In this document: one piece after another, positions 1-44,395 of the stretch
Numbering within the stretch: position 1 is the first letter of the stretch
Layout: each line of letters opens with the position of its first letter
Program-made: the position numbers and the translations under genes
Assembly (NCBI RefSeq): GCF_012999535.1
Contig: NZ_JABBWV010000001.1
Location: 186,001 to 250,000 of the forward strand
DNA length: 64,000 nucleotides
Reading direction: 5' to 3'
Source of the DNA: Microbispora sp. H11081
Lineage (GTDB): Bacteria; Actinomycetota; Actinomycetes; Streptosporangiales; Streptosporangiaceae
The notes under the pieces: model-generated
The model's database searches: none
Told to the model about the DNA's origin: nothing
Seen by the model: the letters and a program-made list of their open reading frames with translations, nothing else

Positions 1-2732
1 CGGCCGGCGCCGCCGACTGGGCCAGGGCGTTCGCGGTCGACCTCGACGAGGTGCCGCTCCCGGCGCGGACCGGCCCCGGCGAAAGCGGCAGTTGGCGGCT
101 GTACACCGCGGGGACCTCCGCGATCGCCGAGCCGCTGCGCCGGGCGCTCGACAAGGGGAACGTCGGCTCCGGGGTGCTGGTGTGCCTGCCCCCGGACTGC
201 GCGGAGGAGCACCTGGAGCAGGCGCTGCTGGGCGCCAAGGCCGCGCTGGCCGGCCCGCCCGGCACCCGGTTCGTCCTGGTCCAGCATGGCCGGGGCGCGG
301 CCGGGCTGGCCAAGACGCTGCACCTGGAGGCGCCGCACCTGACCACCACCGTCGTGCACACCCCCGCGGTGCCGCAGGCGGTCGACCGCGTGGTGGCCGA
401 GGTGGCGGCGACCAACGGCTTCGCCGAGGTGTACTACGACGCCGACGGCGTGCGCCGGGTGCCGACGCTGCGCGCCCTTCCGGTACGGCCGGCCGCCCAG
501 GCGCAGCCGCTCGGCCCGGAGGACGTCCTGCTGGTGACCGGCGGCGGCAAGGGCATCACCGCCGAGTGCGCCCTGGCCGTGGCCGAGGACACCGGCGCGA
601 AGCTGGCCGTGCTCGGCCGCTCCGACCCCGCGGGCGACGCGGAGCTCTCCGCCACCCTGCGGCGGATGGCCGAGGCCGGGGTGACCGTGCGGTACGCCAG
701 GGCGGACGTGACCGACCTCGGTCAGGTGCGCCGTGGGATCGCCGAGCTGGAGGCGGAGCTGGGGCAGGTCACGGCCGTCCTGCACGGCGCGGGCCGCAAC
801 GAGCCCGTGGGCCTCGCCGGTCTCGACGCCGACGCCTTCAGGCGGACGTTCGCCCCCAAGGTCGGCGGGCTGCGCAACGTGCTCGACGTGGTGGACGCCG
901 GCAGGCTGCGCCTGCTGGTCACCTTCGGCAGCATCATCGGCCGGGCCGGCCTGCACGGCGAGGCGCACTACGCCACCGCCAACGAGTGGCTGGCCGACCT
1001 GACCGCCGAGGTCGCGGACAAGCACCCCGGCTGCCGCGCCATCTGCATGGAGTGGTCGGTCTGGTCGGACGTCGGCATGGGCGAGCGCCTGTCGGTGGTC
1101 GAGGGGCTGACCCGCAAGGGCATCGTCCCGATCACCCCCGCGCAGGGGGTGGAGATCATGCGGAGGCTGGTCGCCGACCCCGCCTCGCCCGTCGTCGCCG
1201 TGATCAGCGGGCGTACGGAGGGGATCGGCACGGTCCGCAGGGACGAGCCGCCGCTGCCCCTGCTGCGCTTCGTCGACCGGCCGCTGGTCCGCTACCACGG
1301 CGTGGAGCTCGTCACCGAGGTCGAGGTCAACTCGGGCACCGACCTCTACCTCGCCGACCACCTCCTCGACGGCAACCTCCTGTTCCCGGCCGTCTTCGGG
1401 ATGGAGGCCATGGCCCAGGTCGCGTACGCGGCCACCGGGCGGGCGGAGACGCCGGCGATCGAGGACGCGCGGTTCCTGCGGCCGATCGTGGTGCCGCCGT
1501 CCGGCAGCACGACGCTGCGGATCGCCGCGACGGTCACCGGCGACGACATCGTCGAGGCGGCGATCCGAAGCTCGGACACCGGCTTCGAGGTGGACCACTT
1601 CCGCGCGACGCTGCGCTACACCGGCGAGCCCGTGGCGGACGGGCCGCCCGGCCAGGTCGCCGAGGGGCTGCCCCCGGTGACGCTGGACCCGGCGCGGGAG
1701 ATGTACGGTGACGTGCTGTTCCAGGGCGGCCGGTTCCACCGGCTGCGCCGTTACCACCGAGCCGCAGCCCGGCACGTGGACGCGGACGTCGCGGCGGTGG
1801 CCGACGGCGACTGGTTCGCCCGCTACCTGCCGGACACCCTGCTCCTCGGCGACCCGGGCACGCGGGACGCGCTGATGCACGGCAACCAGGTCTGCGTGCC
1901 GGACGCCACGCTGCTTCCCGTGGGGATCGAGCGGGTGCGTCCGGGCGGCCCCGCCCTCGTGGAGGCCGGCGCGCTGCGGTACTGCGCGACGGAGCGGGAG
2001 CGCGACGGCGACACCTACGTCTACGACATCGCGGTCCGCACCAAGGACGGCGCCGTCGTGGAGCGGTGGGACGGCCTGACGCTGCAGGCGGTGCGCAAGA
2101 AGGACGGCGACGCCGGCCCCTGGGTGGCCCCCCTGCTCGGCTCCTACCTGGAGCGCACGCTGGAGGACCTGACCGGTGACCGGGTGGCCGTCGTGGTGGA
2201 GCCCGGCCTGCCGGGCGAGCAGGACGGCCCGGCCGAGCGGGACGCCCGCGCCGCCGTCGGGCTCGGCCGGGCGCTCGGCCGGCCCGTGGAGGTGCGGTTC
2301 GGTCCCGGCGGCGAGCCGGAGATCGACGGAGAGGCCGGTGTCGCGGTGTCGGCGGCGCACGGGGCCGGGGTGACGCTCTGCGTCGCCGGCGGCGGGCGGC
2401 TCGGCTGCGACGTCGCCGAGGTGGCGGCGTCCGGCGAGGGGCCCGAGCGGTGGCGGGAGGCCCTCGGGCCGAACGCCGCGCTCGCCGAGCGGGTCGCCGG
2501 CCTCGCGGGCGAGGCCCCCGCGGTCGCGGCCGCGCGGGTCCTGGCCGCGGCGCGGTCCCTTGGGCGGGCCGGCCTGCCGGAGGACACCCCGCTCGCGGCC
2601 GGGACCGTGTCCGGCCCGTGGGTGGTCGTCGACGCCGGGGACGCGCGGATCGCGACGCTCGTCACCACCCTGCGGGACGTCGCGGGGCCGGTAGTGATCG
2701 CGGTGCTCACCGAAGGGGGGTCGCGGCCGTGA
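1..2732 (+). CDS. Enediyne polyketide synthase (PKSE), C-terminal part, 5' end outside window
   Basis: The reading frame is open from base 3, so the gene is cut by the window edge; a GTG at 51 is only an internal Val. About 909 residues are present. A ketoreductase comes first: Rossmann motif TGGGKG near residue 178, catalytic Ser in TFGS near 309 and Tyr in AHYATAN near 322. A hot-dog dehydratase follows (ADHLLDGNLLFPAVFGMEAMAQ region near 452). The last 200 residues match the position of the PPTase domain of enediyne synthases. Known enzymes of this family (SgcE, CalE8, DynE8) are KS-AT-ACP-KR-DH-PPT and build the polyene precursor from malonyl-CoA. The PPT-like tail looks degenerate here: GCDVAEV near 801 and RVLAAARSLGRAGL near 845 lack the W, K and E residues expected. 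The stop overlaps the thioesterase start by GTGA, which is the usual E-E10 order. Identification is firm; loss of PPT activity is inferred from memory of family motifs. Confidence 0.93.
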   Translation, partial: AGAADWARAFAVDLDEVPLPARTGPGESGSWRLYTAGTSAIAEPLRRALDKGNVGSGVLVCLPPDCAEEHLEQALLGAKAALAGPPGTRFVLVQHGRGAAGLAKTLHLEAPHLTTTVVHTPAVPQAVDRVVAEVAATNGFAEVYYDADGVRRVPTLRALPVRPAAQAQPLGPEDVLLVTGGGKGITAECALAVAEDTGAKLAVLGRSDPAGDAELSATLRRMAEAGVTVRYARADVTDLGQVRRGIAELEAELGQVTAVLHGAGRNEPVGLAGLDADAFRRTFAPKVGGLRNVLDVVDAGRLRLLVTFGSIIGRAGLHGEAHYATANEWLADLTAEVADKHPGCRAICMEWSVWSDVGMGERLSVVEGLTRKGIVPITPAQGVEIMRRLVADPASPVVAVISGRTEGIGTVRRDEPPLPLLRFVDRPLVRYHGVELVTEVEVNSGTDLYLADHLLDGNLLFPAVFGMEAMAQVAYAATGRAETPAIEDARFLRPIVVPPSGSTTLRIAATVTGDDIVEAAIRSSDTGFEVDHFRATLRYTGEPVADGPPGQVAEGLPPVTLDPAREMYGDVLFQGGRFHRLRRYHRAAARHVDADVAAVADGDWFARYLPDTLLLGDPGTRDALMHGNQVCVPDATLLPVGIERVRPGGPALVEAGALRYCATERERDGDTYVYDIAVRTKDGAVVERWDGLTLQAVRKKDGDAGPWVAPLLGSYLERTLEDLTGDRVAVVVEPGLPGEQDGPAERDARAAVGLGRALGRPVEVRFGPGGEPEIDGEAGVAVSAAHGAGVTLCVAGGGRLGCDVAEVAASGEGPERWREALGPNAALAERVAGLAGEAPAVAAARVLAAARSLGRAGLPEDTPLAAGTVSGPWVVVDAGDARIATLVTTLRDVAGPVVIAVLTEGGSRP

Positions 2733-3157
2733 GCGACTACTACGAATACCTCCACACCGTGGGGTTCGAGGAGACGAACATCGTCGGGAACGTCTACTAC
2801 GTCAACTACCTGCGGTGGCAGGGACGCTGCCGGGAGATGTTCCTCAAGGAGCGGGCTCCGGAGGTGCTCGCCGACCTGCAGGACGACCTGAAGCTCTTCA
2901 CGCTGAAGGTGGACTGCGAGTTCTACGCCGAGATCACCGCCTTCGACGAGCTGTCCATCCGGATGCGTCTGGTCGATCTCGCCCAGACGCAGGTGGAGTT
3001 CAGCTTCGACTACGTGCGGCTCAACCCGGGCGAGGGCGAGACGCTCGTGGCCCGCGGGAGGCAGCGCGTGGCCTGCATGCGCGGGCCGAACACCCGCACC
3101 GCGCCCGCCCGGGTCCCCGACGCGCTGGTCAGGGCGCTCGAACCCTACGCGTCCTAA
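2729..3157 (+). CDS. Enediyne hot-dog acyl-CoA/ACP thioesterase (SgcE10/CalE7/DynE7 type)
   Basis: This 142-residue protein has the single hot-dog fold expected for the thioesterase that releases the nascent polyene from the enediyne synthase. The family signature GFEETNIVGNVYYVNYLRWQGRCRE lies at about residues 10-34 (written here in part: NIVGNVYYVNYLRWQG). The length matches the family. The GTG start at 2729 overlaps the stop of the synthase gene (GTGA), so the two are translationally coupled. An upstream frame-extension to 2450 would run inside the synthase gene and is not used. With the synthase it forms the core of the minimal enediyne cassette, and E3-E4-E5-like genes would be expected upstream outside the window. 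Confidence 0.93.
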   Translation: MSDYYEYLHTVGFEETNIVGNVYYVNYLRWQGRCREMFLKERAPEVLADLQDDLKLFTLKVDCEFYAEITAFDELSIRMRLVDLAQTQVEFSFDYVRLNPGEGETLVARGRQRVACMRGPNTRTAPARVPDALVRALEPYAS

Positions 3158-7942: not shown

Positions 7943-8512
7943 ATGCCGCCGCGAGCCCCAGCAGACGACAATCCCAGGACGACGACACTGGAAGCCTTCG
8001 CGGACACGATCGTCCCCGGTGAGAAGAGGTACCCGGACGACGTGGCCGTGGCCGGCGCGGCCGAGGGGGGCGGCGCGGTGCAGGCCGGCGCCATAGAACT
8101 GCTCGAATGGAACGCGACCGGCGTCACCGAGGGCCTGGACGACTACGCCCGCATGCTCAGCGACCACGCTCGCGACTACGCGGCGGAGCACGGGCTCACT
8201 CTGGACGAGTCCCTGCCGCCGTTCGTCGCGCTCTCCTTCGAGCACAGGACCGCCCTGGTGCGCCGGCTGACCGCGCCCGACCACCCGGAGAAGCCGTTCT
8301 GGGTCCTGCTCACGCTGTTCAGCAACATGGCCTACGACTCCGCGGCGCACATGAGCACGGCCGAGGCGATCGCCGCCGGGCATCCCGGGCTGCTCGCGAT
8401 GGGCGTCGCCCGGCCCGACGAGGACGGCCTGTGGCGGTTCCCCGCCCACTCCTACGGCAGGCCGCTGGCCCGCCTGCACCCGGACACGACGCCTTCAGGG
8501 AGCCCCGCATGA
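7943..8512 (+). CDS. DUF5987-like / gluconate-dehydrogenase-subunit-3-like protein
   Basis: A 189-residue protein beginning TTLEAFADTIVPGEKRYPDDVAVAG near residue 12, a pattern seen in small partner subunits of GMC oxidoreductases. Later aromatic and Asp-rich stretches (FWVLLTLFSNMAYDSAAH) support this. No Tat signal is obvious. The stop overlaps the next gene's ATG by ATGA, so a complex with the GMC oxidoreductase is likely. The RBS GAGGGAA precedes the ATG. The catalytic role, if any, is unknown; it may stabilise or export the oxidoreductase. Confidence 0.7.
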   Translation: MPPRAPADDNPRTTTLEAFADTIVPGEKRYPDDVAVAGAAEGGGAVQAGAIELLEWNATGVTEGLDDYARMLSDHARDYAAEHGLTLDESLPPFVALSFEHRTALVRRLTAPDHPEKPFWVLLTLFSNMAYDSAAHMSTAEAIAAGHPGLLAMGVARPDEDGLWRFPAHSYGRPLARLHPDTTPSGSPA

Positions 8513-10170
8513 CCAGCACTGAACGCACCGACGTCCTCGTGGTCGGCAGCGGCTTCGGCGGCGCCATCGCGGCCTACCACCTGGCCGCGGGCGGCGCGCG
8601 CGTCGTCGTGCTCGAACGGGGGCCGTGGCTGGGCACGCAGGACTTCGAGCACGACTTCAAGCTCGGCTCGTCCTACACACGGGCCTTCGACTTCGTCGTC
8701 GGCGACGGCATGAGCGTGCTCGGCGGCAACTGCGTGGGCGGCGGAAGCGTCGTGTACTTCGCCGCCATGCCCCGCGCGCCGCGCTTCATCTTCGAGCGGC
8801 ACGGCACCATCGGCCGCAGGATGTGGCCGGCCTCCGTCACCCGCGACACCCTCGACCCCTGGTACGACCGGGTCGCGGAGTCCATCCCCGTCACCACCCA
8901 GGACTGGAACGACGTCACGTACGCGGGCGGGCTGTGGGCCGCCGCCTGCGACCACTCCGGCCGCACCGCCAACCCGGTGCCCGTCGCGATCGACAACACC
9001 AAGTGCGTCAACTGCAACTGGATGATGGCCGGGTGCCGCTTCGACGCGAAGCGCTCGCTGCTGACCAACTACCTGCCCGCGGCGCTCGCCCACGGCGCGC
9101 AGATCCGCCCGCTGCACGAGGTGCAGCAGATCGCGCGCAACGACGACGGCTCCTACCGCGTGCACTACGACCTCATCGACGAGGAGGACTACCGGATCCG
9201 CTACGACGGCGGGGCGATCGACGCCAAGATCGTCGTGCTGGCGGCGGGCGCCGGCGCCACCCCCGTCATCCTGCAGCGCAGCGAGGCGACGCTCGGCGCC
9301 ATGCCGCACGCCGTGGGCCGCTACTTCTCCGGCAACGGCGAACGGCTCAACACCGCCGTGCTCAACGAGGACCGGGTGCGCGAGGTGCTCGGCCTGTCGC
9401 GGGGCGACGGCCTCGCGTACGCGGCCAACCAGATCGGCAAGGGCCCGACCGTGGCGAACTGGGACCGGCTCGACGGCTCGCTGCCGGAGTTCACCCGCTA
9501 CTCGCTCGAACAGCTCTACTTCCCGCCCGGCCTCGGCACCATCCTCGCCCAGGTCGCCGACGCCGCCCCCGGCGAGTCGACCTGGTTCGGCGTGAAGAAG
9601 AAGGAGATGCTGCGGCGCTGGCAGTCCTGGCTGATCATCTTCCAGATGATCGAGGACGCCAACGAGGGCGTCTTCGGCCCGCCGCCGGCCAAGGGCAACG
9701 CCGACCGCGTGTCCCAGCAGATGCTCGGCATCGGGCGCCTCAAGTACGACCCCGTGGAGTCCACGCTGCGCGCCTGGGCGATGGCCGACGCGGAGGTGAA
9801 GGAGATCCTGGAGCGCGACGGCCTGGCCACCGTCACCGCCTGGACCAACGACGTGATCGGCGCGTACACCGTGCACCCGCTGGCGTCCTGCCGCATCGGC
9901 GACGACCCCGCGACCTCCGCCCTCGACGACAGGAACGAACTGCGCGGGCACCCGGGCATCTTCGTCACCGACGGCTCCGCCGTGCCGGGCGCGCTCACCG
10001 TGAACCCCGCCATGACCATCGCGGCGCTCGCCGAGCGCGCGATCCCCGGCATCGTACGGGCCGCCCAGGAGCGGGGGGTGGACGTCACCTACGGCGCGCC
10101 GGCCCCCGACGGCGGGATCAGCGCCCGCCGGGGGGTCGCCGACCTGCTGCCCAGCCTGACGAGAAGGTAG
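8509..10170 (+). CDS. GMC-family FAD-dependent oxidoreductase (cholesterol-oxidase-like)
   Basis: This 553-residue protein starts with an FAD-binding Rossmann motif (VLVVGSGFGGAIAAYHLA, residues 9-26) and a following ERGP turn. The GMC loop GGNCVGGGSVVYFAA lies near residue 73. Close to the C-terminus are VHPLASCRIGDDP (active-site His region) and the second FAD segment GIFVTDGSAVPGALTVNPAMTIAALAERA. A Cys pair in CVNCNW near 165 could bind metal or form a disulfide. The ATG at 8509 overlaps the upstream gene. The substrate is probably an alcohol, sterol-like or natural-product hydroxyl; the operon context does not decide. Confidence 0.87.
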   Translation: MTSTERTDVLVVGSGFGGAIAAYHLAAGGARVVVLERGPWLGTQDFEHDFKLGSSYTRAFDFVVGDGMSVLGGNCVGGGSVVYFAAMPRAPRFIFERHGTIGRRMWPASVTRDTLDPWYDRVAESIPVTTQDWNDVTYAGGLWAAACDHSGRTANPVPVAIDNTKCVNCNWMMAGCRFDAKRSLLTNYLPAALAHGAQIRPLHEVQQIARNDDGSYRVHYDLIDEEDYRIRYDGGAIDAKIVVLAAGAGATPVILQRSEATLGAMPHAVGRYFSGNGERLNTAVLNEDRVREVLGLSRGDGLAYAANQIGKGPTVANWDRLDGSLPEFTRYSLEQLYFPPGLGTILAQVADAAPGESTWFGVKKKEMLRRWQSWLIIFQMIEDANEGVFGPPPAKGNADRVSQQMLGIGRLKYDPVESTLRAWAMADAEVKEILERDGLATVTAWTNDVIGAYTVHPLASCRIGDDPATSALDDRNELRGHPGIFVTDGSAVPGALTVNPAMTIAALAERAIPGIVRAAQERGVDVTYGAPAPDGGISARRGVADLLPSLTRR

Positions 10171-10180
10171 GGGGCCACCG

Positions 10181-11281
10181 ATGGGGGCCGTCCTCGCCCG
10201 CGTGATGCTGCCGGCGACGCTGCGGCAGATACGCCACGTCACGCCGGTGCGCCCCGGCGCCGCGCCGGACCTCGTGCGCCGGGTGTACGGGCAGGTCGAG
10301 CGGGACTTCGGCATGCTCGCGCCGCCCGTCATCCTGCACTCGCCCGCGCCGCAGGTGCTGGCCGCGTGCTGGCTGACGCTGCGTGAGTCGCTGCTCGCGC
10401 GGGGCGCGGTCACCCGGGAGGTCAAGGAGGCCGTCGCGGCGGGCGTCTCGCGCGGCAACTCCTGCCCGTACTGCGTGGACGTGCACCAGGCCACGATGGA
10501 CGCGCTCGTCAGACGCGGCGGCGCGCCCGGCGACGGGCTGACCGCGCGGGTCGAGGAGTGGGCGCGTACGGCCGGGCGGGGCGGGCAGGCCGGGTCGCAG
10601 GCCGTTCCCGCGCCGTCCGGGCAGGCGGCGGAACTGCTCGCGGTGGCCGTGACGTTCCACTACCTGAACCGGATGGTCAACGTCTTCCTCGGCGAGTCCC
10701 CGCTGCCCCCCGCGGTGCCCGCGCGGGCGCGCAAGGGATCCATGCGGCTGTTCGGGCTGGTCATGGCGCCCGCGGCGAGCAAGGCGGGGACCCCGGGCGA
10801 CTCGCTGGACCTGCTGCCCGACGCGCCGCTGCCGCCCGACCTGTCGTGGGCGGGGGACGTCCCGCACGTCGCCCTGGCCTTCGCCAGGGCGGCCGCGGCC
10901 GTGGAGGAGGCCGGACGCCGCTCGGTGCCGGAACCCGTGCGCGACCTGGTCACCGGCACGCTCGCCGGCTGGGACGGCGAGCCTCCGGGCCCGAGCCGCG
11001 CCTGGGTCGCCGACGCCGTGTCCGGCCTGCCGGACCGGCACCGCCCGGCGGGACGCCTGGCGCTGCTCACCGCCCTCGCTTCATACCAGGTGGACGACGG
11101 GGTCGTGAACGACTTCAGGCGCGAGGAGCCCGGTGACCGCGCGCTCGTCGAACTGACCGCGTGGGCCGCCATGTCCGCCGCGCGCCGCGCCGGCGCCCTG
11201 GCCCACGCGACCGGCCCGTACGCGGGCGACCGTGACACCGCTACGACTCCTACGACCTCAAGTGAGAGGACTGCGCGATGA
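10181..11281 (+). CDS. AhpD/carboxymuconolactone-decarboxylase-like protein with CxxC motif
   Basis: A 366-residue protein whose key feature is GNSCPYCVDVHQATM near residue 90. This is the CxxC...H redox centre of AhpD-like peroxidases. The remaining 270 residues are helical and Ala/Pro-rich, longer than a single AhpD domain, so a second degenerate copy is possible. Its stop overlaps the start of the next gene (ATGA). In this operon it may provide peroxide reduction for the flavin oxidase upstream. That link is inferred from neighbourhood only. Confidence 0.72.
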   Translation: MGAVLARVMLPATLRQIRHVTPVRPGAAPDLVRRVYGQVERDFGMLAPPVILHSPAPQVLAACWLTLRESLLARGAVTREVKEAVAAGVSRGNSCPYCVDVHQATMDALVRRGGAPGDGLTARVEEWARTAGRGGQAGSQAVPAPSGQAAELLAVAVTFHYLNRMVNVFLGESPLPPAVPARARKGSMRLFGLVMAPAASKAGTPGDSLDLLPDAPLPPDLSWAGDVPHVALAFARAAAAVEEAGRRSVPEPVRDLVTGTLAGWDGEPPGPSRAWVADAVSGLPDRHRPAGRLALLTALASYQVDDGVVNDFRREEPGDRALVELTAWAAMSAARRAGALAHATGPYAGDRDTATTPTTSSERTAR

Positions 11282-12081
11282 CCCAGCTGGAGACCGTGCT
11301 CAGGGACCTCACCGCGGAGGGCGAACAGCTCGACCGCGTCGTGGCCGGCCTCGACGCCGACCAGTGGAACCTGCCCACCCCCGCGCCCGGATGGACGATC
11401 CGGGACCAGATCGCCCACCTCACCTTCGTCTTCCGGCTGGCCGCGACGGCGGCGAGCGACCCCGCGGCGTTCGAGGCGATGACCGCCCCGGCCAAGGGGA
11501 ACTTCGACGCGGCCGTGAACGCCGCGCTCAAGATGTTCGAGAACGACACGCCGGCGGAACTGCTCGCCAAGTGGCGTGCGGTGCGCGCGGAGGTGGTCGA
11601 GGCGCTCGCCGCCGTGCCCGAGGGCACGACCGTGCCCTGGCTGGTCAACCCGCTGCCGCCGGTCGTGCTCGCGTGCGCCGGGATCATGGAGCAGTTCGCC
11701 CACGGGCAGGACATCGCCGACACGCTGGGAGTGGAGTTCGAGCGCACCGACCGGCTCGGCCACCTCGTCGTGTTCGCCGTGCTCACCCGCGACTTCGGCT
11801 ACCTGTCGCGGGGCCTCACGCCGCCGGCCGAGGAGTTCCGCTTCGAGATCACCGCGCCCTCCGGCCAGGTCTGGGCGTACGGCCCGGAGGACGCCGAGCA
11901 GCGGGTCTCCGGCCCCGCCGCCGACTTCTGCCTCCTGGTGACCCGGCGCAGGCACCGCGACGACCTCGCGGTCACGGCCGTCGGCGCCGAGGCCGACCGC
12001 TGGCTGGACATCGCCCAGGCCTACCGCGGCCCGGCCGGTGAGGGTCGCAGGCCGGGCCAGTTCGCTCCCGCGCGCGTGTAG
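11278..12081 (+). CDS. TIGR03084-type DinB/maleylpyruvate-isomerase-like protein
   Basis: The 267-residue product opens with an N-terminal four-helix DinB-like domain typical of mycothiol-dependent enzymes: LDADQWNLPTPAPGWTIRDQIAHLTF near residue 25, with a putative metal-binding His in QIAHL, and a further HGQDI near 145. The C-terminal 90 residues resemble the SCP2-like or wyosine-like tail of the TIGR03084 group. The family uses or handles mycothiol and a bound metal in known members. Its reaction here is unknown. It overlaps the upstream gene and precedes the YcaO-like gene by 25 bases. Confidence 0.75.
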   Translation: MTQLETVLRDLTAEGEQLDRVVAGLDADQWNLPTPAPGWTIRDQIAHLTFVFRLAATAASDPAAFEAMTAPAKGNFDAAVNAALKMFENDTPAELLAKWRAVRAEVVEALAAVPEGTTVPWLVNPLPPVVLACAGIMEQFAHGQDIADTLGVEFERTDRLGHLVVFAVLTRDFGYLSRGLTPPAEEFRFEITAPSGQVWAYGPEDAEQRVSGPAADFCLLVTRRRHRDDLAVTAVGAEADRWLDIAQAYRGPAGEGRRPGQFAPARV

Positions 12082-12106: not shown

Positions 12107-13204
12107 ATGAGGCCCACACCCGCGGGCTTCCGGACGGCGGGGGAGACGCCGGGGACGGCGGGAGAGGTGGCGGGCTGCCTGGACGGCACGGTCCACCTCG
12201 CGTACGCGCGGGCGTCGGCGGCCGATCCCCCCGTGGTCGCCGCCGGTTTCTCCCCCGAGACGGCACTGTCCAGGGCACGGGCCCGCGCCCGTGCCCTGGG
12301 CCTGCTGCGCGAGGCGCGCGGACCGCACGCGGCGCCCGGCGGGAACGCCAGGACGCTGCGGCTGTCCGATTTCGCGCCGCGCTCTGCTGCCGAACCGCGC
12401 TCTGCTGCCGAACCGCGCCCCGATTCCGGGCCGCACGCGGCCGGGGCCGCCGTCCCGCAGGTCGCCGGCAGGGGGCTGCTGACCGGCGCCGCCTACCGGC
12501 TGCCCGGCGAGGTCGTGTGGCTGCGGGATCACGGCGGCCCGGTCGGGCCGACCGCGATCGGGGTGGTGGACGACCACGCCCCGGCCGGCGTCGCCGACGT
12601 GCTCGCCCACGACGCGGTCGTCCGCTGGCGGGCCGCATCTCGCCGCCCGCCGCTGCGGATCACGCCGTACCTCGGCGGCCTGCTCCCGCCCGGGGTCGCG
12701 GAGGCGGCCGCCGGGCTCGGCCTGTCGGTCTCGGCGTACGCGCTGCCGGCCGGCGAGTTCAGGGCCGTGCTGGTCCGCGTGGGCGGCGCGGCCACGACCA
12801 CGGCCGCCGCCTGCGGGCACGCGCTCGGCGCGGCGGTCCGCGAGGCGTTCCTGCGCGCGCTCGCGGGCGGGGTGCGGCCGGGGCGCGACGCCGGCGACCC
12901 GGGCGCGCCGGGCGGCCTCGCCGTGTGGCGCCACGAGGACGGCGACCTGAAGGACAGCGACCTGAAGGACGGCGACCCATTGGACCTGGAGCGGGTGGCC
13001 GTCGACGCCCATCCGGGGATCGTCGACGAGGCCGCCGGGCCCGTCCCTTCCGGCTGGGCGGGCGTCGCCCACCGCCGGTTCGGGCACGAGCCGATCCTCG
13101 TCCAGGCGGGAGAGGCCCGCGAGGCCGTCAAGGTGGTCTGCCCGGGCGCCGCCTGCTATCGGAGAGAGCGGCAGGGAATCGGGGTGCCGTGTCCCGTTCT
13201 GTAG
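12107..13204 (+). CDS. Divergent YcaO-like protein
   Basis: A 365-residue protein following an AAGGAGG box. Several segments resemble the YcaO cyclodehydratase fold: a central helix GHALGAAVREAFLRALAG near residue 235, and a C-terminal EAVKVVCPGAACYRRERQGIG...P.PVL, the place where YcaO proteins end in a conserved V-x-x-PG and Pro-rich tail. The N-terminal helix that should carry ATP/Mg-binding Glu residues reads ALSRARARARALGLLREA and lacks them. It may therefore be a non-catalytic partner or a YcaO relative with another role. Short internal duplications are visible (RSAAEPRSAAEP; DGDLKDSDLKDGD). Family assignment is tentative and made from pattern only. Confidence 0.5.
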   Translation: MRPTPAGFRTAGETPGTAGEVAGCLDGTVHLAYARASAADPPVVAAGFSPETALSRARARARALGLLREARGPHAAPGGNARTLRLSDFAPRSAAEPRSAAEPRPDSGPHAAGAAVPQVAGRGLLTGAAYRLPGEVVWLRDHGGPVGPTAIGVVDDHAPAGVADVLAHDAVVRWRAASRRPPLRITPYLGGLLPPGVAEAAAGLGLSVSAYALPAGEFRAVLVRVGGAATTTAAACGHALGAAVREAFLRALAGGVRPGRDAGDPGAPGGLAVWRHEDGDLKDSDLKDGDPLDLERVAVDAHPGIVDEAAGPVPSGWAGVAHRRFGHEPILVQAGEAREAVKVVCPGAACYRRERQGIGVPCPVL

Positions 13205-13210
13205 TCCCCG

Positions 13211-13255
13211 CACCGTCGCACACACCGTCGCACACACCGTCGCACACACCGTCGC
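13211..13255 (+). repeat. 12-base tandem repeat CACCGTCGCACA, about 3.7 copies
   Basis: Three exact units (13211-13222, 13223-13234, 13235-13246) and a partial fourth lie in the gap between the YcaO-like gene and the TrmB/LuxR regulator. The rest of this 121-base gap shows looser copies of CCGTCG. They may be a slippage product or regulator sites. Confidence 0.8.
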
Positions 13256-13325
13256 GGGCCCTGTCGGGTGCCCCGTCGGACGCGCCGTCGCGCGGATCGC
13301 GCCACCAGGACGCGGGAGGTGAGCC

Positions 13326-14312
13326 GTGGACGTCTCCGTGATCGGCATCTCGCCCGAGGCGGCCGAGATCTACCGGTATTTCCTCCGGTGCAAGGGCGAG
13401 GGAGTCGGATCGGTGCCGGAGGCCCTGGGGCTCTCTCCGGACACCGTCGAGGCCGCCGTCGAGACGCTCAACCGGCTGTCCCTGATCGACATCTCCGACC
13501 GGCACAGGGTCGTGGCGACGGAGCCGCGGATCGGCATCGAGCGGCTGGTGGAAAAGCGGCTCAACGAGCTCAATGCGGAGATCCGCCGGGTCCTCGCGGC
13601 GCGCGATGCCATCGCCGTCTTCATGGAGGACAAGAACGAGGGCGACCGCGCGGCGACGGTCCTCGACATCGAACGGGTGGAGGGCGTGGAGCGGGTCCGC
13701 CAGCGCATCGACGACCTCGCCTTCTTCTCCTACAAGGAGACGCTCTGCCTGCACCCGGGCGGCCCGTTCAGCCGGGCGATGATCGAGTCGGCGCTGCCGC
13801 TTGACACCCGCTCGCTGCGCCGGGGCCTGGCGATCAAGGGCGTCTACCACCCGGCCGCGCTCGACGACCCGTTCATGGTGTCCTACCTGCGCGAGCTGGT
13901 CAGCCTCGGCGCCGAAGTACGCGTCACGGACCAGCCGATGGACCGCATGCTCATCTACGACAGGAGCGCCGCCGTCGTGCCCATCGACCCCAAGGAGAGC
14001 GCGAAGGGCGCCTTGCTGGTCAGGGAACCTGGGCTGGTCTCGCAGCTCGTCATCTACTTCGACGGGGTGTGGAAGTCGGCCACCGACTTCCGCGACATCA
14101 TCGAGCCCACGACCGTGGAGCCGGTGCTGTCGGAGATGGAACAACGGGTGCTCGCGGTGATGGCCACGGCGGACAAGGACGAGATCGCGGCCAGGGAGCT
14201 GGACGTCTCTGTGCGGACCTACCGGCGCTACGTGGCCGATCTGATGGCCAGGCTCGGCGCCGTCAACCGTTTCCAGGCGGCCCTGCGGGCCAAGGAGGAG
14301 AAGTGGATCTGA
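13326..14312 (+). CDS. TrmB/LuxR hybrid transcriptional regulator
   Basis: This 328-residue regulator has three parts. Residues 1-60 form a TrmB-like winged helix (ISPEAAEIYRYFLRCKGEG...ALGLSPDTVEAAVETLNRL). The middle matches the TrmB sugar-regulator/PLD-like sensor domain (RGLAIKGVYHPA...LVSLGAEVRVTDQPMDRMLIYD). The C-terminus is a LuxR HTH (LSEMEQRVLAVMATAD...ELDVSVRTYRRYVADLM). The start is GTG at 13326 with a GGGAGGT box. It is convergent with a small secreted-peptide gene, and a repeated palindromic promoter element lies just beyond that gene. I infer it controls these promoters. What it senses is not known. Confidence 0.85.
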   Translation: MDVSVIGISPEAAEIYRYFLRCKGEGVGSVPEALGLSPDTVEAAVETLNRLSLIDISDRHRVVATEPRIGIERLVEKRLNELNAEIRRVLAARDAIAVFMEDKNEGDRAATVLDIERVEGVERVRQRIDDLAFFSYKETLCLHPGGPFSRAMIESALPLDTRSLRRGLAIKGVYHPAALDDPFMVSYLRELVSLGAEVRVTDQPMDRMLIYDRSAAVVPIDPKESAKGALLVREPGLVSQLVIYFDGVWKSATDFRDIIEPTTVEPVLSEMEQRVLAVMATADKDEIAARELDVSVRTYRRYVADLMARLGAVNRFQAALRAKEEKWI

Positions 14313-14343: not shown

Positions 14344-14562
14344 TCACCCCCAGGTGTTGCCGTACTGCACCGGGCTGCCCCAGGTGTTGCCGTCGGCGAG
14401 CACGGTGATCCGCGGCGTGCCGTCCACGACGCCGGAGTCCTGCGCCGTGCCCACCGCGCCCGCCGTCAGCCCGCACACGAGCGCGCCGGAGGTCAGGGCG
14501 ACGGCCCACTTGAGGGTGCTCCACGAGGCGGTGGCGGTGGCGGTGGCGACCAGGGTCTTCAT
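14344..14562 (-). CDS. Small secreted peptide precursor with repeated GNTWG C-terminus
   Basis: The gene encodes 72 residues. It starts at the ATG at 14562, preceded by GAGAGAGG; a longer minus frame running to 16662 passes through the carboxylase gene and is rejected. Residues 1-40 look like a signal peptide: MKTL, then a hydrophobic core WAVALTSGALVCGLTAGAV and a GTAQ cleavage-like site. The tail is short and polar and ends GNTWGSPVQYGNTWG. The pentapeptide GNTWG is duplicated, and the DNA beneath (GGCAACACCTGGGG) is repeated exactly. It sits convergent to the TrmB/LuxR regulator and has its own copy of the shared promoter element. I do not recognise the family. A secreted signal peptide or RiPP-like precursor are both possible. 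Confidence 0.78.
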   Translation of the reverse strand: MKTLVATATATASWSTLKWAVALTSGALVCGLTAGAVGTAQDSGVVDGTPRITVLADGNTWGSPVQYGNTWG

Positions 14563-14598
14563 CTCGGTACCTCTCTCAGTGCCGGAGCAGTTCGTTCT

Positions 14599-14684
14599 CG
14601 CACTACCTACTGTGCGTCGGCGCGGGGCCGGGAACCAGGCGTACGGCGTGCAGCAAGCTGCACCGGCGTTACCGCTTCCTGCCA
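14599..14684 (-). promoter_or_regulatory. Shared promoter element, copy 1 (drives peptide gene)
   Basis: Read on the minus strand, a 35-base core (14684-14650) begins TGGCAGGA and ends with the palindrome GCAGCTTGCTGC; 32 of 35 bases match copy 2 at 16493-16527. CCTGGTTCCC follows after 10 bases in both copies, and GCACA follows after 14 bases here (15 in copy 2). The palindrome extends to GTGCAGCAAGCTGCAC at 14648-14663. The ATG of the peptide gene lies about 50 bases downstream of the GCACA box. The copy is also 120 bases upstream of the divergent carboxylase gene. Confidence 0.75.
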
Positions 14685-14805
14685 TCGCCGCGCCGCATGG
14701 CAAAGCAGGAGGTGACAGGGCAGGCGCGGGAGATTTTGACTGAGGCCACGTGACCCGGAACGCCGGCGCGCGCACACCGCGCACCCCCCGGGGGAAGGAG
14801 CGCTG

Positions 14806-16422
14806 ATGAGCATCTCGGAACTCGACGTCGCACCGGCCGGCCCGCCGCCGCGTACGCCCCCGGAGCGGCGGGCCCGTTCCATGGGGGCGCTGCGCGAGGA
14901 ACTGGCCCGCCTGCGCGCCCGTACGGTCGCGGGCCGGCCGGACGGCGTGGCCAGGCAGCACGCGCTCGGCAAGCGGACCGCCCGCGAGCGGCTGGAGATG
15001 CTGCTCGACGAGGACTCGTTCGTGGAGATCGACATCTACCGGCGCCACCGGGCGCAGGGGCTGGGCATGGACGGGCGGCGCCCCCACACCGACGGCGTCG
15101 TCGCGGGCTCGGGCACCGTGCACGGCAGGCGGGTGTTCGTCTACGCCCAGGACTTCACGATCTTCGGCGGCGCGCTGGGAGAGGCGCACGCCGAGAAGAT
15201 CCACAAGGTGATGGACCTCGCCATGTCCACCGGCTCGCCGTTCATCGGCCTGAACGACAGCGGCGGCGCGCGGATCCAGGAGGGGGTGATGTCCCTCAAC
15301 GGATACGGCGGCATCTTCCGGCGCAACGTGCAGGCGTCCGGCGTGATCCCGCAGATCAGCGTCGTGCTCGGGCCCTGCGCCGGAGGCGCGGCCTACTCCG
15401 CCGCGCTCGCCGACTTCACCTTCATGGTGCAGGGCACCTCGCAGCTCTACCTGACGGGACCGGACGTCGTCGAGGCCGTGACCGGCCAGCGGGTCACCCA
15501 CGCGGAGCTGGGCGGCGCCCAGGTCCACGGGACCCGGTCCGGCGTGGCGGCGTTCGTGCACGAGGACGAGGAGGCCTGCCTGGCGGAGGTGCGCTACCTG
15601 CTGTCGATGCTGCCGGGCAACAACCTCGAACCGCCGCCCGCGGGGCCGGCGTGCGGCGCGACCCACGACGCCCGCCCGCGCCTGGCGGAGATCGTCCCGG
15701 CCGAGCCCAGCAAGCCGTACGACATGCGCGAGGTGATCGCGGAGGTGGTCGACGACGGCGACTTCCTCGAACTGCACGAAGGCTGGGCGCGCAACGTCAT
15801 CTGCGCCCTCGCCCGCGTGGACGGCGCGGTGGTCGGGATCGTCGGCAACCAGCCGCTGGTGCTCGCCGGCGTGCTGGACGCCGACGCGGCGCAGAAGGCG
15901 GCCAGGTTCGTCCGGTTCTGCGACGCCTTCAACATCCCGCTGGTGACCCTCGTCGACGTGCCGGGCTTCCTCCCCGGCACCGAGCAGGAGTACGCCGGCA
16001 TCATCAGGCACGGCGCAAAGCTGCTCTACGCGTACTGCGAGGCGACCGTGCCCCGCGTCCAGGTCATCCTCCGCAAGGCGTACGGCGGGGCCTACATCGT
16101 GATGGACTCCCGGTCGATCGGCGCGGACCTGTCGCTGGCGTGGCCGACCAACGAGATCGCGGTGATGGGCGCGGAGGGGGCGGTCAACGTCGTCTTCCGC
16201 CGTGAGCTCGCCGCCGCGACCGACCCGGCGGGACTGCGCGCCGAACTGCTCGCGCGGTACGCCGGCGAGCTGGTGCACCCGCAGTACGCCGCCGAGCGCG
16301 GCCTGGTCGACGACGTGATCGACCCGGCGCAGACGCGCTCCGCCGTCGCCCGCGGCCTCGCCATGCTGCGTGACAAGCGCAAGCCAGGGGCCCAGCGCAA
16401 GCACGGGAACGTCCCCCTCTAA
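14806..16422 (+). CDS. Acyl-CoA carboxylase beta (carboxyltransferase) subunit, AccB/PccB type
   Basis: The 538-residue protein has the full two-domain carboxyltransferase fold. The N-domain oxyanion region is PFIGLNDSGGARIQEGV near residue 145 and GPCAGGAAYSAALADF near 187; the C-domain is NQPLVLAGVLDADAAQKAARFVRFCDAFNIPLVTLVDVPGF and AYGGAYIVMDSRSIGADL, here read in short pieces. The residue after AYGGAY is Ile. In the Streptomyces coelicolor enzymes Ile here marks the broad AccB and Asp marks propionyl-specific PccB, so acetyl-CoA may be accepted. ATG at 14806 follows GGGGGAAGGAG. No biotin-carboxylase subunit is in the window; a shared alpha subunit is assumed. Malonyl-CoA supply to the enediyne synthase is a plausible role. 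Confidence 0.92.
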   Translation: MSISELDVAPAGPPPRTPPERRARSMGALREELARLRARTVAGRPDGVARQHALGKRTARERLEMLLDEDSFVEIDIYRRHRAQGLGMDGRRPHTDGVVAGSGTVHGRRVFVYAQDFTIFGGALGEAHAEKIHKVMDLAMSTGSPFIGLNDSGGARIQEGVMSLNGYGGIFRRNVQASGVIPQISVVLGPCAGGAAYSAALADFTFMVQGTSQLYLTGPDVVEAVTGQRVTHAELGGAQVHGTRSGVAAFVHEDEEACLAEVRYLLSMLPGNNLEPPPAGPACGATHDARPRLAEIVPAEPSKPYDMREVIAEVVDDGDFLELHEGWARNVICALARVDGAVVGIVGNQPLVLAGVLDADAAQKAARFVRFCDAFNIPLVTLVDVPGFLPGTEQEYAGIIRHGAKLLYAYCEATVPRVQVILRKAYGGAYIVMDSRSIGADLSLAWPTNEIAVMGAEGAVNVVFRRELAAATDPAGLRAELLARYAGELVHPQYAAERGLVDDVIDPAQTRSAVARGLAMLRDKRKPGAQRKHGNVPL

Positions 16423-16436
16423 ACGCACCGTCTCCG

Positions 16437-16469
16437 CGCCCGCCCCGCCCGCACGGGCGGCGGCGGGCG
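16437..16469 (+). terminator. GC-rich hairpin after carboxylase gene
   Basis: CGCCCGCCCCGCCCG / CGGGCGGCGGCGGGCG with a 2-base CA loop and one bulge, starting 15 bases after the stop. It separates the carboxylase from the next transcription unit. Confidence 0.65.
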
Positions 16470-16492
16470 TTCGCGTGCCCGGACTCCTCCGC

Positions 16493-16580
16493 TGGCAGGA
16501 TGCGGTAACCCCGCTGCAGCTTGCTGCCTGGCCAAGCCCTGGTTCCCCACCACCCCACGGCCGCACATTGATGGTGTGAC
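16493..16580 (+). promoter_or_regulatory. Shared promoter element, copy 2 (drives small gene and PPTase)
   Basis: The 35-base core at 16493-16527 starts TGGCAGGA, includes GCGGTAAC and ends GCAGCTTGCTGC. CCTGGTTCCC lies at 16538-16547 and GCACA at 16563-16567. Sequence between the boxes has diverged from copy 1 while spacing is kept within one base. It sits after the carboxylase terminator and points toward the genes at 16704 and 16992. Confidence 0.72.
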
Positions 16581-16703
16581 GACAGAAGGCAGCGGACGGA
16601 GACGGCCCCCGGGCGCCCGCCTCCCCGCAGGAGCCGTGTGCCGGCCAGGGACGCGGCGGCACGCGAGGTCGCCGGGCCGGCGGCCGGAGAGGGAGCCGAG
16701 GCC

Positions 16704-16967
16704 ATGCTGGTTCAGCTGACGGTGCGGCGGACGGACGGGCAGGCGGCGCCGGGCTCGCCGGTGGACGGGATCCGGGTGCTCGCGCTTCTTCCCGGGAGCT
16801 GGCACAAGCACCTCGAACACGTCGCGGGCGACATCGTCATCAGAGTCCGCGCCGAGGGGACGACGGCGGGCGGAGTCCGCGCCGAGGTGACGAGGATCCT
16901 CGCCACCCCCGAAGTGAGCCACCTGGAACTGGTCGCCTGCCGTTCCCTCGACGGCCCCCGGCAGTAG
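16704..16967 (+). CDS. Small protein of unknown function upstream of PPTase
   Basis: An 87-residue product if read from the ATG at 16704, which follows GAGAGGGAG. An in-frame GTG at 16638 would add 22 residues and also has an AGGAG nearby, but spaced very close. The protein alternates likely strands and helices (LVQLTVRR; WHKHLEHVA; DIVIRVRAEG; VRAEVTRILA; HLELVACRS), which could make a small ferredoxin-like alpha/beta fold. I do not recognise the family. It does not resemble the known small epsilon subunits of acyl-CoA carboxylases. It is the first gene after the shared promoter element copy 2 and is 24 bases from the PPTase gene, so the two are probably co-transcribed. Confidence 0.6.
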   Translation: MLVQLTVRRTDGQAAPGSPVDGIRVLALLPGSWHKHLEHVAGDIVIRVRAEGTTAGGVRAEVTRILATPEVSHLELVACRSLDGPRQ

Positions 16968-16991: not shown

Positions 16992-17753
16992 ATGATCGCC
17001 TCGGCTGTGACGGCGGGTGAGTGCCAGGTGTGGTGGGCGGACCCGCGGCAGGAAACGATCGAGACCCTGGTGGGTGACCTCAGTGCGAACGAACTGCGGC
17101 GTGCGGCGCGCTTCCGCCGTGAGCCGGACCGCCGGCGCTTCCTGACCGGGGCGTGGCTGCTGCGGGAGGCGGCCGGCGACCGGCTGGGAGTCCGCCCCGC
17201 GGACGTGGTGGTGGACCGGACGTGCCCCGACTGCGACAGGTACCACGGCAAGCCCCGCGTCGTGACGGAGGAGGAGAGCCTGCACGTCTCCATCTCCCAC
17301 TCCGGCGACAGGGTCGCGGTGGCGCTGACGGACGTGGGGCCGCTGGGCGTCGACGTGGAGGCGGTGCCCGAGACGCCGGTGGACGACCTGGCGCGCTGCG
17401 CGCTGACCGAGAGCGAGCGCCAGGCCCTCGCGGCGCTCCCCGAGCACGCGCGGTACGAGGGCTTCGCCCGGATCTGGGTGCGCAAGGAGGCGGCGCTCAA
17501 GGCCACCGGGCACGGACTGCGGATCTCGCCGGACCGGGTCGAGGTGACAGGTCCGGGGGAGAGCCCCGCGCTGCTCGGCTGGCCCGTCGACGTGCCGCCG
17601 GAAGCGGTGCGGATCCACCCGCTCGACCCCGGCCCGGGGTACGTCGCCGTCGTCGCGGTCGTCGGCGGCGACCACGGCATCACCATCCGCGAGGCGGACG
17701 CTGCGCTCCTGCGCGGGCGCGCCGGGATCGCGACGGCACGCCAGGCCGCGTGA
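16992..17753 (+). CDS. Sfp-type 4'-phosphopantetheinyl transferase
   Basis: This 253-residue enzyme transfers phosphopantetheine from CoA to carrier proteins. The metal-binding motif GVDVEAV lies near residue 119 and WVRKEAALKATGHGL near 162, so the catalytic Asp, Glu and Lys are all present. The upstream RRRFLTGAWLLRE and SISHSGDRV segments also fit Sfp-type enzymes. ATG at 16992 follows AAGGAG. It lies in the unit led by promoter copy 2. The enediyne synthase at the start of the window has a degenerate self-activating domain, so this enzyme is a good candidate to activate its ACP; that is inference. Confidence 0.92.
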   Translation: MIASAVTAGECQVWWADPRQETIETLVGDLSANELRRAARFRREPDRRRFLTGAWLLREAAGDRLGVRPADVVVDRTCPDCDRYHGKPRVVTEEESLHVSISHSGDRVAVALTDVGPLGVDVEAVPETPVDDLARCALTESERQALAALPEHARYEGFARIWVRKEAALKATGHGLRISPDRVEVTGPGESPALLGWPVDVPPEAVRIHPLDPGPGYVAVVAVVGGDHGITIREADAALLRGRAGIATARQAA

Positions 17754-17852: not shown

Positions 17853-18578
17853 GTGAACAAGGGCTTCATCTTGATCCCCGGCCCCTGGATGGGCGCCTGG
17901 GCGTGGGGGCCGGTGGCCCGGCGCCTGCGTGGTCACGGTCACGCCACTCGCGCGATCACGCTCCCGGGCCTGGCCGACCCCGACGGGGACGTCGCCGGCG
18001 TCGGACTCGAGACGCACGTCGGCACCGTGCTGTCGCTGCTGGAGGAGGAGGACCTGCGCGACGTCGTCCTCGTCGCGCACAGCTACTCGGGCATCGTGGC
18101 CGGGCAGGTCGCCGACCGCGCGGCCGACCGGGTGGCGCACACGGTGTTCGTCGAGGCGTTCCTGCCGCACGACGGCAAGTCGATGCTGCACGCGTTCCCC
18201 GAGCGTCAGCACGCCGCCGAACTGCGGCTCATCGAGGACAACGGCGGCCGCTGGCCCGCCCCCGACGCCGCCGTCGTTGGCGAGGGGCAGGGCCTGACCC
18301 GGCGGCAGGCGCGGTGGCTGGCCGATCGGCTCGTCGGCCATCCGGGGCGCACCGTCGCGGAGCCCGCCGTCCTCACCCGCCCCCTGACGCAGCAGCGCGC
18401 CACGTACGTCGTCTGCTCGATGGAGCACTTCGACGGACGCGTCGCCGCGGACGTCGACGCCATGCGCGCCGCCCCGAACTGGCGCTTCCACACCCTCCCG
18501 ACCGGGCACTGGCCCATGATCTCGGCGCCGGGGCGGCTCGCCCATCTCCTGCACCGGATCGCCGCACGCGCCGAGTAG
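17853..18578 (+). CDS. Alpha/beta-hydrolase
   Basis: A 241-residue hydrolase of the esterase/hydroxynitrile-lyase-like group. FILIPGPWMGAWAWGPVARRL at residues 5-25 gives the oxyanion loop, VLVAHSYSGIVAG near 73 holds the nucleophile Ser (A-H-S-Y-S-G), and LPTGHWPM near 221 holds the catalytic His. GTG start at 17853 with AAGAAGG upstream. It lies 99 bases after the PPTase stop and may belong to the same transcript. The natural substrate is not evident. Confidence 0.85.
   Translation: MNKGFILIPGPWMGAWAWGPVARRLRGHGHATRAITLPGLADPDGDVAGVGLETHVGTVLSLLEEEDLRDVVLVAHSYSGIVAGQVADRAADRVAHTVFVEAFLPHDGKSMLHAFPERQHAAELRLIEDNGGRWPAPDAAVVGEGQGLTRRQARWLADRLVGHPGRTVAEPAVLTRPLTQQRATYVVCSMEHFDGRVAADVDAMRAAPNWRFHTLPTGHWPMISAPGRLAHLLHRIAARAE

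Positions 18579-39211: not shown

Positions 39212-44395
<5,184 letters not shown>

Follow-up and report, generated by a model that had tools for sequence, protein, structure and literature searches.

Two copies of a shared promoter element beside an enediyne cassette in Microbispora: a candidate LuxR-type regulon with tryptophan-repeat peptides

The window analysed here, a 64,000-nucleotide (nt) stretch of the genome of Microbispora sp. H11081, holds two closely similar copies of a short DNA element, one upstream of a gene for a small tryptophan-repeat peptide and the other upstream of a unit made up of a small gene and a gene for a 4'-phosphopantetheinyl transferase (PPTase). The gene for a LuxR-type regulator lies near both, and an enediyne cassette reaches into the window. 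The question that this locus raises is whether the two copies are a common promoter that joins peptide, regulator and PPTase unit in one circuit, and how far that circuit would extend. We consider it likely that both are copies of one activator-dependent promoter of a dispersed secondary-metabolism regulon, with peptide and regulator belonging together as a matched pair. Below, G, C and L numbers are our handles for genomes, contigs and loci.

The promoter element and its geometry

The cores of the two copies, TGGCAGGAAGCGGTAACGCCGGTGCAGCTTGCTGC on the minus strand (14684-14650) and TGGCAGGATGCGGTAACCCCGCTGCAGCTTGCTGC on the plus strand (16493-16527), are identical at 32 of 35 positions and have GCAGCTTGCTGC as their shared 3' end. 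Both are followed by CCTGGTTCCC 10 bases beyond the core, and GCACA comes after 14 bases in the minus copy and 15 bases in the plus copy; in all of this the sequence agrees with an earlier sequence-only reading of the window. The similarity between the copies is far above chance. A scan of the whole 7,376,733-base genome that ignored the three differing bases and tolerated at most three further mismatches recovered both window copies and no third, and a reversed control pattern gave no match. Exact spaced patterns also matched only the window copies in a set of 120 genomes that included its own; with nothing found in the 119 other related genomes, exact matching alone is uninformative about the kind of element. 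A private duplication, suggested by the exact 35-mer search of the own genome (up to three mismatches), was overturned by a model of the peptide promoters.

This model, R1, was built from sequence only, as an alignment of nine homologous peptide-gene promoters, all nine of these genes having the element upstream at about equal distance. Copy 1 is one of the nine model-building sequences and its score is not independent of the model, while copy 2 was withheld, so that its recovery is an independent match. In the own genome, the model listed copy 1 (E 4.6e-22), C43:122117 (4.4e-12), copy 2 (3.7e-11) and C1:164861 (6.0e-9), followed by weaker matches at C1:165065 (6.0e-6), C48:87963 (1.1e-3) and C47:366906 (3.3e-3) and seven further ones with E from 0.1 to 3.4. 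The conserved unit is about 95 bases long, exceeding the 35-base core. In the window it is made up as follows:

14591..14685, minus strand: promoter copy 1, 5' of the peptide gene (R1 80.8 bits, E 4.6e-22)
14675..14683, minus strand: left half-site GGCAGGAAG of copy 1, inferred regulator site (conserved alignment columns)
14649..14657, minus strand: right half-site CTTGCTGCA of the dyad, copy 1 (conserved columns)
14633..14638, minus strand: -35-like block CTGGTT of copy 1, inferred (19-nt spacing rule from CTTGCTG)
14609..14614, minus strand: -10-like block CACAGT of copy 1, inferred (24-nt spacing from the -35-like block)
16492..16583, plus strand: promoter copy 2, 5' of the small-gene/PPTase unit (R1 45.8 bits, E 3.7e-11)
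16494..16502, plus strand: left half-site GGCAGGATG of copy 2 (conserved columns)
16520..16528, plus strand: right half-site CTTGCTGCC of copy 2 (conserved columns)
16539..16544, plus strand: -35-like block CTGGTT of copy 2, inferred (sequence and conserved columns)

The geometry was measured on 146 distinct copies among the best-listed sites. The left-to-right half-site distance is 27 in 139 of them, a CTGGT block lies 19 nt after CTTGCTG in 138 and a CACAGTT block lies 24 nt beyond the -35-like block in 119; blocks and distances are kept in most copies while the spacers have drifted. A start codon with a ribosome site is found at +115 to +141 on the motif strand in 83 of the 144 copies with enough flank, compared with 4 of 144 at +415 to +441, and the mirror strand gives 10 of 144 at both distances. 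The preferred start codon distance is about 125 nt from the start of the dyad. We infer from this arrangement an activator site placed ahead of a -35 and a -10 block.

The LuxR-type regulator and the tryptophan-repeat peptides

The two genes that would form the matched pair are neighbours:

13326..14312, plus strand: 328-amino-acid LuxR-type regulator, candidate activator and candidate receptor (Pfam GerE; orthologues)
14344..14562, minus strand: gene for a 72-amino-acid peptide with a hydrophobic N-terminal segment and two C-terminal GNTWG repeats (homologues; repeat counts)

The regulator contains a GerE domain at residues 267-321 (PF00196, 5.9e-7, 29.5 bits with a cut-off of 23.5), and its profile matches DesR and GerE chains. 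It had been labelled TrmB/LuxR; Pfam supports the LuxR/GerE end of this label only, and gave no TrmB family to E 1e-3. NCBIfam gave no family for the protein either, though it may still bear a more distant resemblance to TrmB. Down to the same Pfam threshold GerE was the only family, with no autoinducer-binding domain of the LuxI/LuxR type and no tetratricopeptide repeat (TPR) family of the RRNPP type.

Orthologues of the regulator (at least 64% identity) are present in 37 of the 297 genomes of the family, and so are strong sites (E < 1e-8); 36 genomes are common to both sets, or 36 of 37 whichever set is taken as the reference (Fisher p 4e-44, without correction for relatedness). The cuts for orthologues, for strong sites and for the enediyne marker described below (1e-117) were set post hoc at visible gaps. 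The next entries below them are 51% identity (G034), followed by 49% and then 41% or less; E 2.1e-4 (G056); and E 3.8e-81 (a second paralogue). At E 0.01 a match is found in 49 of the 297 genomes. The 37 regulator genomes account for at least 265 matches at this level (median 7, range 1 to 13), at most 13 candidates having been scored per genome so that higher site counts are lower bounds, and only 12 of the other 260 genomes have any. A class-wide sample of 345 genomes gave a site at E 1e-5 in 7 genomes of the family and in one other, the latter a partial match at E 1.4e-6. In a scan of named genomes the regulator was found at 28 loci, in Microbispora, Planotetraspora, Streptosporangium, Planobispora, Planomonospora, Sphaerisporangium, Nonomuraea, Sphaerimonospora and Rhizohabitans, the nearest orthologue being that of Microbispora sp. 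H13382 (97%).

This comparative evidence of fixed geometry, start codon preference and co-occurrence with the regulator supports the proposal of a regulator-linked shared promoter. The two-copy circuit proposed earlier has to be replaced by a dispersed regulon with a median of 7 sites per regulator genome.

Repeat peptides are by far not confined to the window. A protein search with the 72-amino-acid window peptide matched in 21 of the 297 family genomes, and 9 of these were judged to be true homologues by repeat and promoter (L005-L009, L011, L017, L021 and L024, own genome included). The other 12 places (L010, L012-L016, L018-L020, L022, L023 and L025) are chance frames, as judged by reading the surrounding DNA. 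This first search was insensitive, and repeat peptides were eventually found in 34 genomes. The repeat unit is GNTWG in the window and GNTWP or GTTWD elsewhere, with variants, and within a genome it is near-invariant among units matched by the search expression: TTWD makes up 33 of 33 units in G244, 33 of 33 in G254 and 23 of 23 in G236. Such matched units include only three deviants in all genomes together; outside the expression are units that have lost the tryptophan, GTTGD (G218) and GTTRD (G266), and the otherwise changed DTPWG (G266). The window peptide has no Pfam family and no meaningful NCBIfam family. For five of the peptides NCBIfam was searched to E 1 for precursor families of ribosomally synthesized and post-translationally modified peptides (RiPPs) and gave none, the two weak matches (0.031 and 0.093) being unrelated. 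In G244, six near-identical 42-amino-acid repeat-peptide genes, each with its own promoter, form an array of about 6 kb (L074, C107:21552-27692), and L075 has two more genes like them.

The regulator tree was compared with the tree of the enediyne protein DUF1702 on the same 33 rows, with the repeat labels merged into three classes (NTWG with NGWG, NTWP with TTWP, and TTWD with STWD) and with regulator genomes G048, G198 and G123 (no readable repeat) and G058 (NGQWG) excluded from the counts. Repeat class switches twice on the regulator tree, as few times as three classes allow, and 6 times on the DUF1702 tree. The genus changes 11 and 9 times, respectively, and 300 label shuffles gave at least 10 changes on the regulator tree and at least 9 on the DUF1702 tree. 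The pattern can be seen in single strains. The enediyne genes of the window strain and H13382 group with those of other Microbispora, which have the TTWD type, while in regulator and peptide the two strains show the NTWG type and stand beside Streptosporangium and Planotetraspora. The enediyne genes of Sphaerisporangium album lie beside those of G249 and G227 (TTWD), but for regulator and peptide this strain has the NTWP type of Nonomuraea. Since repeat class tracks the regulator tree and not the enediyne tree, regulator and peptide move or change together, and this suggests that the regulator may recognize the peptide. Unlinked peptide copies are found only in TTWD- and STWD-type genomes, and there the types match.

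We propose that the LuxR-type regulator would bind the dyad just upstream of the -35 block and recruit RNA polymerase to a promoter laid out as an imperfect dyad, GGCAGGAAG-N17-CTTGCTGCC, with CTGGTT at a fixed 19 bases and CACAGTT about 24 further. In genomes with an enediyne cassette this would jointly switch on tryptophan-repeat peptides, the PPTase unit, chorismate/tryptophan enzymes and other secondary-metabolite genes. The most likely role for the peptide would be that of a signal, with the repeat unit as the signal proper and the regulator as its putative receptor. Because the peptide gene shares the promoter of the regulon, the loop would be self-amplifying.

Several observations weigh against this view. 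G123 has the regulator and only a weak site (E 6.3e-4), and G007 has a strong site and neither a regulator nor a peptide match; the latter site (L218:8946-9042, 66.9 bits) precedes an unrelated 207-amino-acid frame in a genome without the enediyne marker and is possibly a relic. Much of the co-occurrence of regulator and site is shared descent, though patchy within genera. Of the 14 own-genome matches to E 10, none falls at the gene of the regulator itself and none at the enediyne PKS (polyketide synthase) operon. A simple hydropathy window test found a hydrophobic segment in 41 of 85 peptides; the 44 without one, all with the TTWD repeat and from eight genomes, are ill-suited to be secreted pheromones, and may leave the cell by another route, work inside it or be products of modification. 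The earlier description of a secreted peptide gives only a partial picture. With the six labels unmerged, the tree contrast shrinks to 5 changes (the minimum) versus 7, and it is 3 versus 7 when G058 is counted. Joint transfer could by itself give matched types because peptide and regulator genes are often neighbours, and in NTWG- and NTWP-type genomes the single repeat peptide found lies near the regulator.

Probable targets of the promoter and the neighbouring genes

The genes downstream were inspected for 150 of 153 sites, namely 147 of the 150 best listed and three weaker own-genome sites; classes were assigned by sequence words, and for most of them Pfam or NCBIfam served to check a single example. 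Tryptophan-repeat peptides of 24 to 142 amino acids follow 85 of these sites, in the 34 genomes mentioned above. A small-gene/PPTase unit without a readable repeat peptide follows 13 sites by script and window copy 2, and carboxymuconolactone-decarboxylase-like (CMD) proteins follow 12, four of them assigned by hand after being missed by the script. Prephenate dehydrogenase is downstream of 4 sites; methyltransferases, flavin or nicotinamide adenine dinucleotide (FAD/NAD) proteins, alpha/beta hydrolases and VWDEL-repeat peptides of 3 each; and adenosine monophosphate (AMP) ligases, 3-deoxy-D-arabino-heptulosonate 7-phosphate (DAHP) synthases, tryptophan dioxygenases and LanB-like dehydratases of 2 each. 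The residual 15 are mixed, unclear or at contig ends. Further genes behind sites of the own genome encode a chorismate-binding/amidotransferase enzyme and a divergent prephenate dehydrogenase 18 kb to the left of the enediyne PKS. Others encode a CMD protein and, in one operon with genes for a globin and an FAD enzyme, a VWDEL peptide. The theme of the regulon is the supply of aromatic units, the activation of acyl carriers and small peptides.

Copy 2 and the genes around it in the window are arranged as follows:

14806..16422, plus strand: acyl-CoA carboxylase carboxyltransferase subunit (Pfam Carboxyl_trans 2.7e-188)
16706..16967, plus strand: 87-amino-acid small protein, encoded first in the PPTase unit (no Pfam family; GTG at 16638 as an alternative start)
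16992..17753, plus strand: 4'-phosphopantetheinyl transferase (Pfam ACPS 2.8e-17)
17853..18578, plus strand: alpha/beta hydrolase, end of the conserved block (Pfam Abhydrolase_6 3.4e-17)

In relatives, too, the small gene stands ahead of the PPTase gene, and in many of them the alpha/beta hydrolase stands beside it. The site before the PPTase unit recurs in G004, G120, G225, G019, G002, G254, G249, G266, G227 and others, so that copy 2 is old. In G002, G254 and G249 a repeat-peptide gene, likewise behind this promoter, opens the PPTase operon. G120 has a peptide-like leader in fusion with the small gene, and G266 a shortened peptide ending in GTTRD. The window and G004 have no readable repeat-peptide gene at the head of the unit. 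As a repeat peptide heads the operon in some relatives and is unreadable here, copy 2 is probably the old promoter of a conserved PPTase operon whose first gene, encoding a peptide, was lost in the lineage of the window.

The features of an enediyne cassette are an iterative PKS, a DUF1702 pair, UnbV, a membrane protein and a hot-dog thioesterase. Most of the cassette lies left of the window and reaches into it: a KS-AT-KR-DH PKS, two DUF1702 proteins and UnbV (UnbV_ASPIC) were found beside the locus, the membrane protein matched no family, and the thioesterase is within the window.

2729..3157, plus strand: enediyne thioesterase (phmmer: 4i4j 1.9e-73, CalE7 1.4e-64, DynE7 2.7e-39)

The closest of these, 4i4j, is an acyl carrier protein (ACP)-polyene thioesterase. 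A strong orthologue of the DUF1702 marker is present in 75 of the 297 genomes, including all 37 with the regulator (p 1.6e-26, relatedness not corrected). Marker and regulator are within 33 kb in 17 of the 37, 58-116 kb apart on the same contig in 10 and on different contigs in 10. Fuller cassettes lie beside the locus in G004, G120, G125 and G155, with parts in G225 and G198. Inside a large gene of the window (39212-44380), the stretch 40148-40325 is made up of perfect tandem repeats of 36-base period, with a 135-base offset as well.

Upstream of the regulator is a gene that adjoins it in most loci read:

12107..13204, plus strand: 365-amino-acid divergent YcaO-like protein (hhalign E 1.3e-5, probability 80, with the Pfam-YcaO protein of G125)

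It had no family match in Pfam or in a Protein Data Bank (PDB) profile search, and the profile comparison with YcaO is moderate only. A short run of ACACCGTCGC-like repeats fills 13213-13300, directly 5' of the regulator gene. Small open reading frames with one GTTWDE followed by tryptophan-acidic text sit between the YcaO-like gene and the regulator in three loci (L203:3100-3216, L208:2111-2242 and L209:2012-2125), with no listed promoter site ahead of them. A block at 7943-12081 in the window, with DUF5987, a GMC oxidoreductase, a CMD protein and a mycothiol-type isomerase, adjoins many regulator loci.

Some sites precede genes of RiPP type. A 46-amino-acid VWDEL-repeat peptide heads an operon under the shared promoter in the own genome (L070, C43:116138-122077), together with a globin, an FAD monooxygenase, a FemAB-like protein and, by eye, an MFS exporter and a PIG-L-like gene; this operon looks like an undescribed RiPP-type cluster. 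L128 (G045) has a VWDEL peptide and a PIG-L-like gene on the same strand and an MFS-like gene beyond them on the opposite strand, and the stretch read around the VWDEL peptide of L111 (G002) has no such partners. The promoter also stands ahead of a 26-amino-acid peptide (MDSNIWDLGQVDEEAQEFDVLGTKSY) and a YcaO protein (Pfam 1.7e-22) in L118 (G125:C24:45560-48107), and ahead of LanB-like dehydratases in L176 (G249:C1:4231301-4233820; Pfam Lant_dehydr_N) and, by sequence likeness, L157 (G227). In L087 (G141:C4:43909-45766), P450-like and ferredoxin-like genes, assigned by eye, lie directly 5' of one repeat-peptide gene.

Alternative readings and significance

The strongest alternative accepts the regulon and takes the peptides to be products, that is multi-core substrates of YcaO-like, LanB-like, flavin or P450 enzymes as candidate modifiers, or decoys or shields for the enediyne, with the regulator sensing something else. 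Repeats with a fixed core resemble multi-core precursors, and the YcaO-like neighbour of the regulator, the YcaO and LanB genes under the same promoter in relatives and a P450-like gene next to one of four peptide genes read in G141 are in keeping with this reading. So are the peptides lacking an export-like segment, the presence of at least 12 repeat-peptide genes in one genome and the enediyne marker in every regulator genome. However, repeat type tracks the regulator and not the enediyne genes. In addition, a TTWD-type query gave no convincing repeat peptide in 38 enediyne genomes without the regulator, a soft result with one query type and 4 of 5 positive controls matched, G008 being missed; the G211 match to this query sits in a 939-amino-acid frame and was rejected. 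Nor was there any recurring neighbour at the dispersed short peptide genes read by eye in G244, G254 and G141. We regard this alternative as possible and somewhat doubtful.

Binding of the element by some other activator or by a sigma factor, with the regulator only co-inherited, is unlikely. The length of the element leaves room for more than one protein, and no site was found ahead of the regulator gene in the own genome, but the coincidence with this one regulator over 297 genomes, patchy as it is within genera, and a dyad symmetry that fits a dimeric DNA-binding protein both argue for the LuxR-type regulator. That copy 2 arose from copy 1 by a recent local duplication and without shared control, as the close identity of two copies 1.8 kb apart might suggest, is very improbable given the recurrence of the PPTase-unit site in many relatives. 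The idea of a dispersed repeat or mobile piece that has no promoter function, close to what the earlier reading had named as one refutation, holds for the dispersal (at least 13 copies in some genomes) and is hardly credible for the rest, since the copies face genes in one orientation at a preferred start codon distance, keep their blocks while the spacers drift and precede unrelated genes of one theme.

Under the reading that we prefer, an activator-dependent regulon with a matched peptide and regulator, the system resembles the RRNPP, Agr and ComQXPA systems of Gram-positive peptide quorum sensing in having a small peptide gene beside a regulator, with its own promoter in the regulon, and in that peptide type and regulator type switch together across relatives. 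In contrast to those systems, the regulator is LuxR-type with no TPR domain matched, and the putative signals repeat a fixed five-residue unit, with many of them dispersed and many without an export-like segment. It shares with the cluster-situated LuxR-type activators of actinobacteria a GerE-type domain and a position beside a biosynthetic cluster, and differs from them in a regulon that is chromosome-wide and has repeat-peptide genes as its commonest members. The auto-induction of microbisporicin in Microbispora corallina involves MibR, MibX and MibW (PMC4973701); MibR is similar in its LuxR-type DNA-binding end, its activation of a secondary-metabolite operon and its feed-forward induction, but acts on the mib lantibiotic operon, and both the extracytoplasmic function (ECF) consensus (GAACC-N15-GCTAC) and the mibA promoter motif given there differ from the window element. 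In the open-licence PubMed Central literature we found no account of the element, the regulator or peptides with GTTWD or GNTWG units.

It is conceivable, and we put it forward with some reserve, that this is an undescribed actinobacterial pheromone-receptor system in which a five-residue tryptophan unit serves as the "pherotype", carried by multi-copy precursors and controlling an enediyne-accessory and RiPP-type regulon through a dyad promoter. Enediynes rank with the most potent cytotoxins found in nature, and the clusters that encode them often stay silent in culture. A short promoter signature, a candidate regulator and a peptide unit that can be synthesized would together offer a direct handle for activating silent enediyne clusters. 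The signature also flags regulon members far from the cluster, such as small-peptide operons with globin, YcaO or LanB genes, and the system bears on whether actinobacteria use ribosomal peptide signals.

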